From a bacterium (lineage in GTDB: Bacteria; Hinthialibacterota; Hinthialibacteria; H5-UNCL2), in NCBI GenBank assembly GCA_015075175.1, contig JABTUV010000003.1, forward strand, positions 1 through 64,000: 64,000 bases of DNA, in the 5' to 3' direction. Below, piece after piece: positions 9,774 through 18,896 of the stretch (position 1 is its first letter; each line of letters begins with the position of its first letter). The position numbers and the translations under genes were made by a program. The notes beneath the pieces are model-generated. The model did not search any database and was not told where the DNA came from. It worked only from the letters and a program-made list of their open reading frames with translations.

Positions 9774-11717
9774 GTGAGAAGCGCTTCCAGCGTCCAGTCC
9801 GTCAGTTTCTCGCTGTTCGGCGACCAGGCCTGCGCCTGCGCGCAGGATCCGACGGGTTACGCCAGCGCGGTGGACATGATGCGCCGCCTGCGCGGGCCGC
9901 TGACCGTCTCCTGGGACTTGACCATGGACTGCCACCTGCGCTGCGCCCACTGCTTCAACATGAGCGGTTCGCACCGCCACCCGGACGAGCTGACGCACGC
10001 GGAGGCGATGGCCCTGTGCCGGCAGCTGATCGACCTGGAGGTGCTGAATGTGTGCCTGTGCGGGGGCGAGCCGCTTCTGCGGGCGGACCTCTTCGAGATC
10101 GCCGAGACGCTGGGCGCCGCGGACATCGTGTTGTCGATGGTGACCAACGGGTATTACCTGACGGAGGAGAAGGCGCGGCGGCTGGAAGCGGCGGGCGTGC
10201 GCTTCATTCAGGTGAGCATCGACGGCGTGGACGCGGAGACCCACGAGCGGTTGCGGGGGCTGTCCGGCTCCTTCGAGCGCGCCCTGGCCGCCGCGCGGGC
10301 GGTCGCCAAGACCAAGGTGGAACTGGCCGTCGCCTTCTGTCCCACCCGCTTCAACATCGAGCAGTTCCCCGACTACGTCAGGATGGTGCGCGAGCTGGGC
10401 GCCAAACAGATTCGCATGATGCCCATCCTGCGCATGGGCCGCGCCGAACTCTTCCGCGACGAACTCCTGCCCACCGCCGACCAACTGGTCCGCTTTCGCC
10501 AGCACGTGCAGGAGGCCTCGCTGACCGCCATGGACGACGGCGTCATGATCGAGCTGGGCGATCCGCTCGAGCATTTTTATCTCTTTCCGCGCAACGACGC
10601 CAAGCTCTTCATCCTCTGCATCCGCTCCAACGGCGATCTGACCATCACCGGCTATCTTCCGCTGGTTTTCGGCAACGTGCGCGAGCGGCCCATCATGGAC
10701 TACTGGAACGCGGGGCTGGCCGACATCTGGCGCCATCCGCTGGTCACCAGCCTGTGCGACCGCGTCACCAATCTTGAGGAACTGCGCGACATCGATCCTC
10801 TGCCGTGGGTCGAGGGCGATCTCCATGTCGATCTGTTTGATCCCCGCGCCACCCTGGAACATCCGAGCGTGAAAAAGATCATGAAACCGACTCCCAAACC
10901 CGAAGGCTTCAAGATTCGCAGCGAGCACGACGACGTCATGTCGGTGTTCCCACTGGATTTCGACTGCGGGCGGCAGGTGCATTTTCTCAATCCCAATGCC
11001 ACCTTCATCTACCGGCAGTGCGATGGAAAACGGAGCGTGGCGGAGATCGCGCGCGCGCTGATGAAGGAATACCCCGACCTGCCCAAGGAGCAGGCGCGGC
11101 GCGACGTGGAGGCGTGCCTCTTTGCGCTGGCGGACCTGGGGCTGGTGGAGTGGAAGAAAAACGGGCGCACCCCGCCGCCCAAGGCGGGGCTGCTCGTGCG
11201 CTTCTCCGACGAGACCGACTTCAAGCCCATCTCGAGCTTTCTTTCCGACTGTATCGCCGAGCAGCGCGAGGGCCGCGGCCTTCCCAACTGGTACCTGCCG
11301 GTAGACGTGGCGGGCTACTATCATCCCGTGGCGGTGCGTATGAGGCAGTTCCACAGCAAGGAGATTTGTTACGTCTTGGAGCGGGCGGGCAAGCTCCTGG
11401 GAGTGGGCAGCCTGACCTTCGTGGCCGCGCCGCTGACATCGTCGCAGATCGGCTGCCTGGCGGTGCGGGGGGACTCGGCGGCGGAGCATCGCGATCTTTC
11501 CTCCATCCTTCTGGACGGGCTGTGCCGCGCCGGGCGGCATCTGGGCCTGACCAAGCTGAAGTGCAGTCTGTTGGGCGACGAACCCGCCGCGCCGCTGGCC
11601 CGGTTCCTGTCCGAGCACGGGTTCGCCTGCGAGGCGGTGCTGCGCGACGAACTGGGACCGGGCGGCCACTACTCGGTGTACTCGAAGCCCCTGCCGCGGT
11701 CGGAGGAGAAGCCGTGA
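9774..11717 (+). CDS. Radical SAM protein fused to PqqD-like and GNAT-like domains
   Basis: Start GTG 9774 is chosen because AGGAGG at 9761-9766 lies 7 nt upstream; a GTG at 9768 is too close. The protein has about 647 residues. The radical SAM cluster motif is CHLRCAHC (Cys53, Cys57, Cys60), followed by a GGEPLLR motif near residue 96 and a TNGYYL strand. The segment where a SPASM domain would be keeps little Cys content (FILCIRSNGDLTITG), so auxiliary clusters are doubtful. Residues about 386-465 resemble PqqD (NPNATFIYRQCDGKRSVAEI), the fold that binds leader peptides in many RiPP maturases. The last 170 residues look like a GNAT acetyltransferase. Its stop overlaps the next start by 4 nt (GTGA). 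A peptide-modifying role is inferred from the PqqD-like domain and from the short Asn-rich gene downstream. Confidence 0.85.
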   Translation: MRSASSVQSVSFSLFGDQACACAQDPTGYASAVDMMRRLRGPLTVSWDLTMDCHLRCAHCFNMSGSHRHPDELTHAEAMALCRQLIDLEVLNVCLCGGEPLLRADLFEIAETLGAADIVLSMVTNGYYLTEEKARRLEAAGVRFIQVSIDGVDAETHERLRGLSGSFERALAAARAVAKTKVELAVAFCPTRFNIEQFPDYVRMVRELGAKQIRMMPILRMGRAELFRDELLPTADQLVRFRQHVQEASLTAMDDGVMIELGDPLEHFYLFPRNDAKLFILCIRSNGDLTITGYLPLVFGNVRERPIMDYWNAGLADIWRHPLVTSLCDRVTNLEELRDIDPLPWVEGDLHVDLFDPRATLEHPSVKKIMKPTPKPEGFKIRSEHDDVMSVFPLDFDCGRQVHFLNPNATFIYRQCDGKRSVAEIARALMKEYPDLPKEQARRDVEACLFALADLGLVEWKKNGRTPPPKAGLLVRFSDETDFKPISSFLSDCIAEQREGRGLPNWYLPVDVAGYYHPVAVRMRQFHSKEICYVLERAGKLLGVGSLTFVAAPLTSSQIGCLAVRGDSAAEHRDLSSILLDGLCRAGRHLGLTKLKCSLLGDEPAAPLARFLSEHGFACEAVLRDELGPGGHYSVYSKPLPRSEEKP

Positions 11718-17097: not shown

Positions 17098-18896
17098 CGC
17101 TCATGGCTGCCGCGCCCGGCCGTCCGGGACCTTTCCGCCGCGCCATCGCCGCCGTGGCAGGCCCGTTTTCGGGTTGGTCCTTCTACCGCCGCGCCTTTGA
17201 CTTCGTGCGCCCCTACCGCGGGCTTCTGGACGTCTGCTTTGTGGCGACCATGCTGCTCTTTCTCATCTCGCTCGTGCCCGCCTGGTTCACCAAGGTGCTT
17301 CTGGACACCATCATCGTCGAGGGCGACGTGGCCAAACTGGACCGCATCTTCCAGTGGGTGATCCTCGTCTTCTTCATCGACCTGGGGCTGGGTTTCGCCA
17401 ACTTCTGGCTGTTCGTCAATCTTTCCGAGAAGCTGCAGCTGCAGGTCCGGCTCACGTTTCTGAAACACCTGCAGAAGCTCTCGCTGGCGGTATTGGACCG
17501 GTTCCGCGCGGGCGGATTGTCCTATCGGCTCCTGTCCGACACAGCGGCGGTTCCCGGCGCGGTCACCAGCGCGGTGGTCGATTTCACGCTTTATCTATTA
17601 ACCTTCGCCATCGTGGGCGGCATTCTCGTCTACTATCAGCCCAAGTTGACGCTCTTCTGCTTCCTTCTTATCCCGGTGCATATCGCCACGCTGGTCGCCT
17701 TCCACGGGCCGGTGCGACGCTGGAGCATGAAGCTGCGGCGCGAGAGCGAATCGGTCTCCGGCGACCTGATCGAGCTCTTCGGCGCCACCCGCCTGGTGCG
17801 CGCGCTGGGAACCGAGGGCAAAGAGCACGACCGCATGGCCGACCGGCTGGACCTCCTGCGCCGCTGGTCGGTCAAAAGCAACCTGCTCGTCAAGTCCTCC
17901 AACCTGGGCGCCAACACCGTGGCCAACTTCTGGAGCTTCTTCGTCCTCTGGTACGGCGGACGACTGGTGATGGCGGGCGACATGAAGGTGGGCGAGCTGA
18001 TGTTCTTTCTCATGCTGCTGCTGCGCCTCCTGTCGCCGATTTCGGGCATCACCTACCTGTTCCTCGGCTTCCAGGACACGATCGTGGGCATCGCGCGCGT
18101 TTACGAAGTGCTGGACATGCCCGAGGACACGCCGGAGTGCGGCGAGCCGGTGGACTTGCCCGTGGTCGAGGGGCGGGTGGAGTTCCGGTCGGTGACGTTC
18201 GCCTATCCCAGCGGGCAGGAGGTGCTGCACGACCTCTCATTCCGCATCGAGCCGGGAGAGACGGTTGCGCTGGTAGGACGAAGCGGGGCGGGGAAGACGA
18301 CCGTGGCCAACCTGTTGGCCCGGTTTTACGATCCGCAGTCGGGTGCGGTGCTATTGGATGGGGTGGATTTGCGGCGGCTGTCGCGGACTTGCCTGCGGCG
18401 CTCCATCGGGCTGGTCTTGCAGCAGGATTTCATTTTCAGCGGGACGATCTACGACAACATCGTGTGCCGGCTGCCGGGCGTTTCGCGGGAGGAGGTGATG
18501 GCGGCGGCGCGGGCGGCGCGCGTGGATGAGTTCGCCGAGCGCCTGCCCCACGGCTACGACACCTGGGTGGGCGAGCGGGGGGTGACGCTCTCGGGCGGCC
18601 AGCGCCAGCGCATCGCCATCGCGCGCGCGTTACTGCGCGACCCTCGAGTCCTCATTCTCGATGAGGCCCTCTCCGCCGTGGACATGGAGTCCGAGGCTGC
18701 CATTCAAGAGGCGCTGGCCGAGGTCATGCGCGGCCGCACGACGCTCGTGATCGCCCATCGCCTCTCGACCATCCGCGCCGCCGACCGGATTTTCGTCATG
18801 GAGGACGGGCGCATTCCGGAGACCGGTTCGCACGAGGAACTTCTGGCGGCCGACGGCCTTTACGCGCGCATGCACGAAAGGATGGTGCGGCTATGA
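17094..18896 (+). CDS. ABC exporter (fused permease-ATPase)
   Basis: GTG 17094 overlaps the preceding TGA; ATG 17103 is an alternative start. The 600-residue protein is a half-transporter: membrane domain about residues 35-330, then the nucleotide-binding domain with Walker A GRSGAGKTT (near 395), Q-loop LQQDF, signature LSGGQRQR (near 499), Walker B VLILDEALS (near 519) and the switch His in IAHRLS. This is the MsbA/McjD exporter type, which dimerises and pushes lipids or peptides outwards. There is no N-terminal C39 peptidase domain, so it would not cleave a leader itself. In this operon it is the likely exporter for the product of the upstream enzymes. A lipid flippase role cannot be excluded. 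Confidence 0.88.
   Translation: MTLMAAAPGRPGPFRRAIAAVAGPFSGWSFYRRAFDFVRPYRGLLDVCFVATMLLFLISLVPAWFTKVLLDTIIVEGDVAKLDRIFQWVILVFFIDLGLGFANFWLFVNLSEKLQLQVRLTFLKHLQKLSLAVLDRFRAGGLSYRLLSDTAAVPGAVTSAVVDFTLYLLTFAIVGGILVYYQPKLTLFCFLLIPVHIATLVAFHGPVRRWSMKLRRESESVSGDLIELFGATRLVRALGTEGKEHDRMADRLDLLRRWSVKSNLLVKSSNLGANTVANFWSFFVLWYGGRLVMAGDMKVGELMFFLMLLLRLLSPISGITYLFLGFQDTIVGIARVYEVLDMPEDTPECGEPVDLPVVEGRVEFRSVTFAYPSGQEVLHDLSFRIEPGETVALVGRSGAGKTTVANLLARFYDPQSGAVLLDGVDLRRLSRTCLRRSIGLVLQQDFIFSGTIYDNIVCRLPGVSREEVMAAARAARVDEFAERLPHGYDTWVGERGVTLSGGQRQRIAIARALLRDPRVLILDEALSAVDMESEAAIQEALAEVMRGRTTLVIAHRLSTIRAADRIFVMEDGRIPETGSHEELLAADGLYARMHERMVRL

Follow-up and report, generated by a model that had tools for sequence, protein, structure and literature searches.

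The first 64,000 nucleotides (nt) of contig JABTUV010000003.1 (GenBank assembly GCA_015075175.1), from a bacterium of the phylum Hinthialibacterota and referred to below as the window, carry a gene cluster that probably serves the production of a ribosomally synthesized and post-translationally modified peptide (RiPP). Its predicted product is a membrane-active peptide akin to polytheonamide, the cytotoxin of a sponge symbiont; D- and L-residues would alternate in it, its Asn side chains would be N-methylated, and it would derive from a precursor with a short leader of the Y-x-x-P type. This assignment is carried by the gene content of the cluster, the homology of its enzymes, their conserved catalytic residues and domain folds, the periodicity of the precursor core, and the conservation of the entire cassette in other bacteria.

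An asparagine-alternating precursor core

A single reading frame at 14220–14387 encodes a tract of 56 residues (NAVNNVNAINNANFIFNANAVANANALSNANLNFNANANINWNANHTYNWNWGPDK), 22 of which are Asn, and is closed by a TAA stop codon at 14388–14390. The original prediction, made from the nucleotide letters alone, had proposed a short Asn-alternating gene at about 14180–14390 whose Asn codons are all AAC; direct reading of the 22 codons, the open frame and the codon statistics all bear this out. The GC content of the third codon positions is 1.00 across 14220–14339, and a codon-usage hidden Markov model (HMM) marks 14188–14372 as coding in the very frame of the Asn tract, evidence that is independent of the Asn pattern itself. 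We also considered that the tract might be the C-terminus of the upstream gene, an outcome that the original prediction had named as speaking against itself, and rejected this since the upstream gene stops at the same point as its paralogue and the homologous precursors are separate genes. When the 5 Mb genome was searched with a five-fold AAY-alternation pattern, the only matches besides the tract were simple (AATCTT)n-type hexamer repeats. Arrays of this AATCTT hexamer are dispersed over the GC-rich genome, with more than 20 places genome-wide and one in the window at 45177–45209 on the minus strand.

The distances between the Asn residues of the tract are nearly all even and peak at six residues (18 pairs observed vs. 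7.5 expected from shuffling). The repeats spaced by 18 nt that a repeat finder detects in the core correspond to the same six residues, and the core can be read as a succession of NANxxx hexads. From position 10 onward (counting from 0) all Asn residues fall on one parity, so that all of them would share one configuration. The same rhythm is found when 14 cores are analyzed by Asn autocorrelation, with Asn pairs occurring almost only at even lags (lag 6, z = 20; lag 12, z = 14; odd lags, about −8), a contrast between even and odd lags that is inflated for some cores as the set was chosen partly by Asn content and alternation. The peak at lag 6 was no selection criterion when the set was compiled. 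Peptides with alternating L- and D-residues form β-helices with about six residues per turn, and the maxima at lags 6 and 12 are those predicted for one turn of such a helix. In polytheonamide, the methylated residues Asn 16, 22 and 28 form a stack along the helix, in which an insert of six residues amounts to one turn (PMC11285071).

The methyltransferase belongs to the AerE family

For the protein encoded at 11714–13141, Pfam gives no more than a generic methyltransferase match, and its NCBIfam placement is close to the HemK/PrmC N5-glutamine methyltransferases. A profile built from nine homologues finds AerE as its best match in the PDB (E = 9.4e-33, residues 8–352), an enzyme that N-methylates Asn in aeronamide (PMC11285071). 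The AlphaFold2 model of the window protein (predicted local distance difference test, pLDDT, 88) superimposes on AerE with a Z-score of 37.8 at 2.5 Å over 359 residues, and the next family reaches 28. Three AerE residues that were mutated in the entries 7rc3, 7rc4 and 7rc5, Y137, D141 and N231, correspond to Y137, D141 and N226 of the window protein and are invariant in both of our methyltransferase alignments (A4 and A7). By every feature that can be tested computationally the enzyme falls within the AerE family, and N-methylation of Asn is its predicted reaction. Its catalytic domain (residues ~6–369) is followed by a C-terminal domain (~385–468) that is absent from AerE and resembles PqqD (hhalign 95.8%, E = 8e-9, with three negative controls below 1%); this likeness comes from profile–profile comparison, and Pfam alone found no PqqD domain there.

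A radical SAM protein with recognition and acyltransferase-like domains

The 649-residue protein encoded at 9768–11717 combines a radical S-adenosylmethionine (SAM) domain (residues ~43–365; PF04055, 2.8e-23), a PqqD-like recognition domain (~404–460; PF05402, 1.1e-12) and a GNAT fold (~473–649; Foldseek/VIA, Z ~17). The CxxxCxxC motif is common to eleven homologues of the radical SAM protein, in which a CxCGGE motif is likewise invariant; the residues concerned are C55, C59 and C62 as well as C96 and C98, and an additional conserved Cys of this kind might act as a hydrogen donor. In the PqqD-GNAT proteins, the PqqD portion resembles TbiB1, a RiPP recognition element (RRE) protein of lasso peptide biosynthesis (E = 3.6e-4), and weakly TfuB1. 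That the radical SAM domain acts as an epimerase is a prediction, and it is the weakest catalytic assignment in our model. We make it on the grounds of the D-Asn requirement reported for AerE, of the geometry of the core, and of the YydG-like epimerase that fills the same slot in the sister clusters described below.

Conservation of the cassette

In 84,980 species genomes, the methyltransferase alignment picked out 80 loci. Asn-alternating precursors are present in 19 of the 30 loci that have a cognate radical SAM gene vs. none of the 50 without it (Fisher p = 5e-11). In the tree, one branch (94/89) places the 10 type-A homologues without exception on the side of the window. Ten type-A loci were informative, having a full-length methyltransferase with the PqqD tail and good flanks, and in eight of them a short Asn-alternating precursor gene lies beside the genes for the type-A radical SAM enzyme, the PqqD-GNAT protein (usually a separate gene) and the methyltransferase. 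The original prediction had offered homologous loci lacking an N-rich short gene as a way to overturn it; most of the informative loci turn out to have one. These eight loci, among them representatives of Desulfosporosinus, Enterococcus, Lachnospiraceae, Caloranaerobacter and Anaerococcus, encode precursors with a Y-x-x-P-type leader of about 25–30 residues ahead of the Asn-alternating core, and the Caloranaerobacter locus additionally possesses an ABC exporter and an SdpI protein. Searches with the radical SAM protein were far less productive: a protein-pattern scan of genome contigs with this protein alone gave no relative, and searches of 14 genomes of the phylum and 386 relatives gave one distant locus only.

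A sister branch, found in Collinsella, on a Klebsiella plasmid, in Rhizobium and on a Thermus plasmid, has the same core pattern in longer precursors, together with a YydG-like radical SAM protein (1.2e-20 to TIGR04078) and a methyltransferase that lacks the PqqD tail. In the Collinsella and Rhizobium precursors, a DUF5969 domain (PF19394) follows C-terminally on the NANA core. Neither Pfam nor NCBIfam has a model for the short precursor, and we found no description of the system in the literature searched, a body that excludes preprints and most subscription journals. The gene-cluster family thus appears to be widespread and undescribed, with its novelty provisional.

Several further arrangements were seen in these loci. 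In a metagenome-assembled genome of the Clostridia, the YydG-like radical SAM and AerE-like methyltransferase parts are fused in one open reading frame of 748 residues (L081, 3883–6127). Two precursors adjoining YydG-like radical SAM and methyltransferase genes have sparser Asn residues six apart (L121 at 8180, VNAAAAVNAVVGVNVVAAVNVV; L075 at 720, NVIIYANLAAGANAGAMANV) and come nearer to the aeronamide pattern. Type-A radical SAM and PqqD-GNAT genes also occur next to short hydrophobic peptides that have a Y-E-T-P leader and no Asn pattern, in Collinsella (L034, 6306–6461) and in genome G071 (L035, ~5640–5470, minus strand); these are likely a sister peptide class. On the Klebsiella plasmid (L038, 9699–13649), genes for a toxin-activating lysine-acyltransferase, an HlyD-type adaptor and a peptidase-containing ABC transporter adjoin the Asn-alternating precursor, hinting at acylation as a shared theme.

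Gene neighborhood and leader region

The features of the cluster, with the evidence in brackets, are as follows.

9768–11717, plus strand: radical SAM, PqqD-like and GNAT protein, predicted peptide epimerase/acyltransferase (Pfam, fold)
11714–13141, plus strand: AerE-like methyltransferase, predicted to act on Asn N, with C-terminal PqqD-like domain (profile, structure, hhalign)
13142–13367, plus strand: gap with imperfect inverted repeats (repeat search; noncoding by codon-usage HMM)
13368–14138, plus strand: protein with N-terminal signal-like stretch, no named family (reciprocal tblastn)
14140–14219, plus strand: precursor leader region, frame-disrupted in the assembly (pieces resembling the family leader in successive frames)
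14220–14390, plus strand: precursor core, Asn-alternating, NANxxx hexads and stop codon (frame, repeats, Asn spacing, codon-usage HMM)
14413–16690, plus strand: transglutaminase-like protein, N-terminal ~490 nt frame-disrupted (PF01841, 1.8e-12, in 14900–16687; frame analysis)
16687–17097, plus strand: DUF1648 membrane protein, candidate immunity protein (PF07853, 3.6e-15)
17094–18896, plus strand: ABC exporter with membrane domain and ATPase, no peptidase domain (PF00664, 1.4e-35; PF00005, 5.1e-35)
18893–19972, plus strand: TolB-like β-propeller protein (PF07676, 2e-17; 4-nt overlap with the ABC gene)

The domains that had been proposed for the neighbors of the Asn-rich gene in the original prediction, radical SAM, PqqD and GNAT, a methyltransferase with a PqqD-like tail, DUF1648 and ABC, were all recovered. 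Its description of one overlapping operon holds for the identity of the neighbors; the overlap is broken by the gap of 226 nt at 13142–13367, possibly a second promoter region, whose largest inverted-repeat arms lie at 13148–13200 and 13382–13434. Its gene list was correct for the genes named and lacked two others, the gene at 13368–14138 and the transglutaminase-like gene at ~14413–16690. The former product, without a match in Pfam or NCBIfam, is paralogous to the C-terminal portion of the latter (reciprocal tblastn, E = 1e-8 to 1e-9). The transglutaminase-like protein is a possible processing factor. Within 14900–16690, the usual position of the catalytic Cys appears, judged by eye, to be taken by Ser. 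Whether the TolB-like gene belongs to the cluster is uncertain.

Ahead of the core frame, the window contains leader fragments spread over successive frames, Y-x-x-P (as Y-H-R-P) followed in the next frame by V-x-x-x-D (within R-V-V-R-M-D-D). The order of these pieces is that of the intact homologues, for instance Y-E-K-P-S-V-Q-V-D-G-x-E-P-R-G in locus L048, with similar leaders in L043, L046, L050, L051 and L053. Conserved leaders in the intact homologues, the PqqD domains and the conserved cassette jointly support the assignment as a RiPP precursor, whose leader is frame-disrupted in the window itself. Because of this disruption in the present assembly, formation of the product by this organism is only putative.

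Proposed product and alternative explanations

According to the pathway that we propose, the leader would be bound by the two PqqD-like domains, one in the radical SAM–GNAT protein and one in the methyltransferase. The radical SAM domain would epimerize alternate residues of the core to the D-configuration, Asn included; the AerE-like enzyme would then N-methylate the side-chain amides of D-Asn, and the GNAT domain may acylate the peptide. Subsequent to export by the ABC transporter and removal of the leader by a protease, the core would fold into a β-helix of about six residues per turn with its Asn side chains stacked in register and would act on membranes, with the DUF1648 protein providing self-protection.

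Several observations weigh against this proposal. The radical SAM protein could be assigned to no known epimerase family: its scores fall far short of every NCBIfam cut-off shown, and it is not hit by the profile of the YydG-like enzymes, which leaves it outside the YydG family. Two of the informative type-A loci (L045 and L047) are devoid of an Asn-rich precursor, and we identified no dedicated leader protease. Moreover, the original prediction had remarked that the start of the peptide needs a frameshift, and there are indeed at least two frame changes within 14140–14210, and further ones within 14413–14900 at the N-terminus of the transglutaminase-like protein. With both regions disrupted, the locus could be a decaying copy that has kept its enzymes, carries a broken precursor and a broken transglutaminase-like gene, and makes no product, the more so as rpoB and alaS, inspected as a test for a general sequencing failure, are intact in the same genome. 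We regard such decay as a serious though rather unlikely explanation. Open frames and a strong coding bias characterize the core and every enzyme gene, the catalytic residues are retained, and the codon-usage HMM detects similar clusters of frame changes in other apparent genes of the window (6986–7986, 51494–52616, 58313–60572 and 61277–61648), which suggests local consensus errors or decay there as well; those at 6986–7986, 51494–52616 and 61277–61648 speak for consensus error at our locus.

Other explanations concern the chemistry and the role of the product rather than the integrity of the locus. A RiPP cluster of the same genes might employ its radical SAM enzyme for cross-linking or C–H functionalization and its methyltransferase on L-Asn or another site. 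The lack of an assigned NCBIfam family for the radical SAM protein would fit this view, as would its closest PDB relative by profile, the thioether-forming enzyme SkfB. Yet the core consists mostly of Asn, Ala and aliphatic residues with few of the Cys, Lys and Trp residues usual for cross-links, the period-6 pattern at even lags lacks an evident cause unless D- and L-residues alternate, all three tested residues of AerE are kept, and the enzyme in this position of the sister clusters is a YydG-like epimerase; we consider a non-epimerizing enzyme distinctly improbable. A signal or metallophore-like product instead of a membrane-active toxin appears unlikely, if somewhat less so. It draws on the fact that the immunity role of the DUF1648 protein is a prediction, but SdpI is an immunity protein against a membrane-active toxin, and DUF1648/SdpI genes recur in sister loci. 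The predicted architecture, furthermore, equals that of polytheonamide and aeronamide, both channel-forming (PMC11285071). Finally, Asn/Ala-rich repeats do occur in low-complexity proteins, and one homologue has a non-significant autotransporter match, so that the tract might be an ordinary structural, adhesin-like repeat unrelated to the enzymes. In view of the strict even-lag periodicity across distant phyla, the conserved short leaders that precede the tracts, and the confinement of the tracts to methyltransferase loci with a cognate radical SAM gene, we reject the simple low-complexity reading as extremely improbable.

Beyond the window, we lean, with less confidence than for the cluster itself, toward a widespread, undescribed non-proteusin class of β-helical, D/L-alternating and Asn-N-methylated channel peptides that would range over Bacillota, Actinomycetota, Pseudomonadota, Deinococcota, Acidobacteriota and other phyla. 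It would comprise two branches, with two types of radical SAM epimerases and one shared family of AerE-like methyltransferases, and the window would represent a deep branch whose enzymes carry fused recognition domains. Polytheonamide-type peptides are known as rare, highly modified proteusin products of sponge symbionts and a few other bacteria. Should our proposal hold, the same architecture would be reached from unrelated short precursors in culturable anaerobes and gut bacteria, with simple cassettes of three or four genes for D/L-alternating channel peptides. It would also bring forth a new epimerase subfamily (radical SAM–PqqD–GNAT) and candidate immunity proteins, account for DUF5969 and a set of orphan methyltransferases, and make precursors findable by pattern through the NANxxx hexad rule.

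Comparison with known systems

DUF5969 proteins are connected with the present system through the Collinsella and Rhizobium precursors, in contrast to the window-type precursor, which is free of this domain; Pfam gives no function for DUF5969, and no paper in the literature searched names it. The YydG/EpeE epipeptides resemble the sister branch in its YydG-family-like radical SAM enzymes and differ from the window, whose radical SAM protein is not YydG-like; to our knowledge, epipeptide precursors have no Asn pattern and their clusters no methyltransferase. With the PqqD/RRE-dependent RiPPs, lasso peptides among them, the cluster shares PqqD-like domains, including the similarity to TbiB1 and TfuB1, and a Y-x-x-P-x-[VIL] leader motif like that of the lasso leaders that B1 proteins recognize. 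Unlike in lasso peptide clusters, Pfam and NCBIfam revealed neither a lasso cyclase nor a lasso protease among the cluster proteins examined, and a different core chemistry is predicted.

The nearest comparison is with the proteusin channel peptides polytheonamide and aeronamide, with PoyE/AerE as N-methyltransferases and PoyD/AerD as epimerases, an analogy drawn already in the original prediction. Membership in the proteusins could not be upheld: neither a nitrile-hydratase-like nor a Nif11-like leader was found with NCBIfam and Pfam in seven intact homologous precursors or the window core, only ~80 nt separate the upstream gene from that core, and the leader is of the short Y-x-x-P type (about 25–30 residues). 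In the window cluster, where no specific search for them was made, neither a B12-dependent radical SAM C-methyltransferase nor a LanM-like dehydratase came to light. The radical SAM protein appears to be of another subfamily, with PqqD and GNAT domains fused to it, and the methyltransferase has a PqqD-like domain of its own. What stands of the analogy is the homology of the methyltransferase to AerE by sequence and structure, with its conserved catalytic residues, together with the evenly spaced Asn residues, the six-residue repeat and the presence of a radical SAM enzyme.

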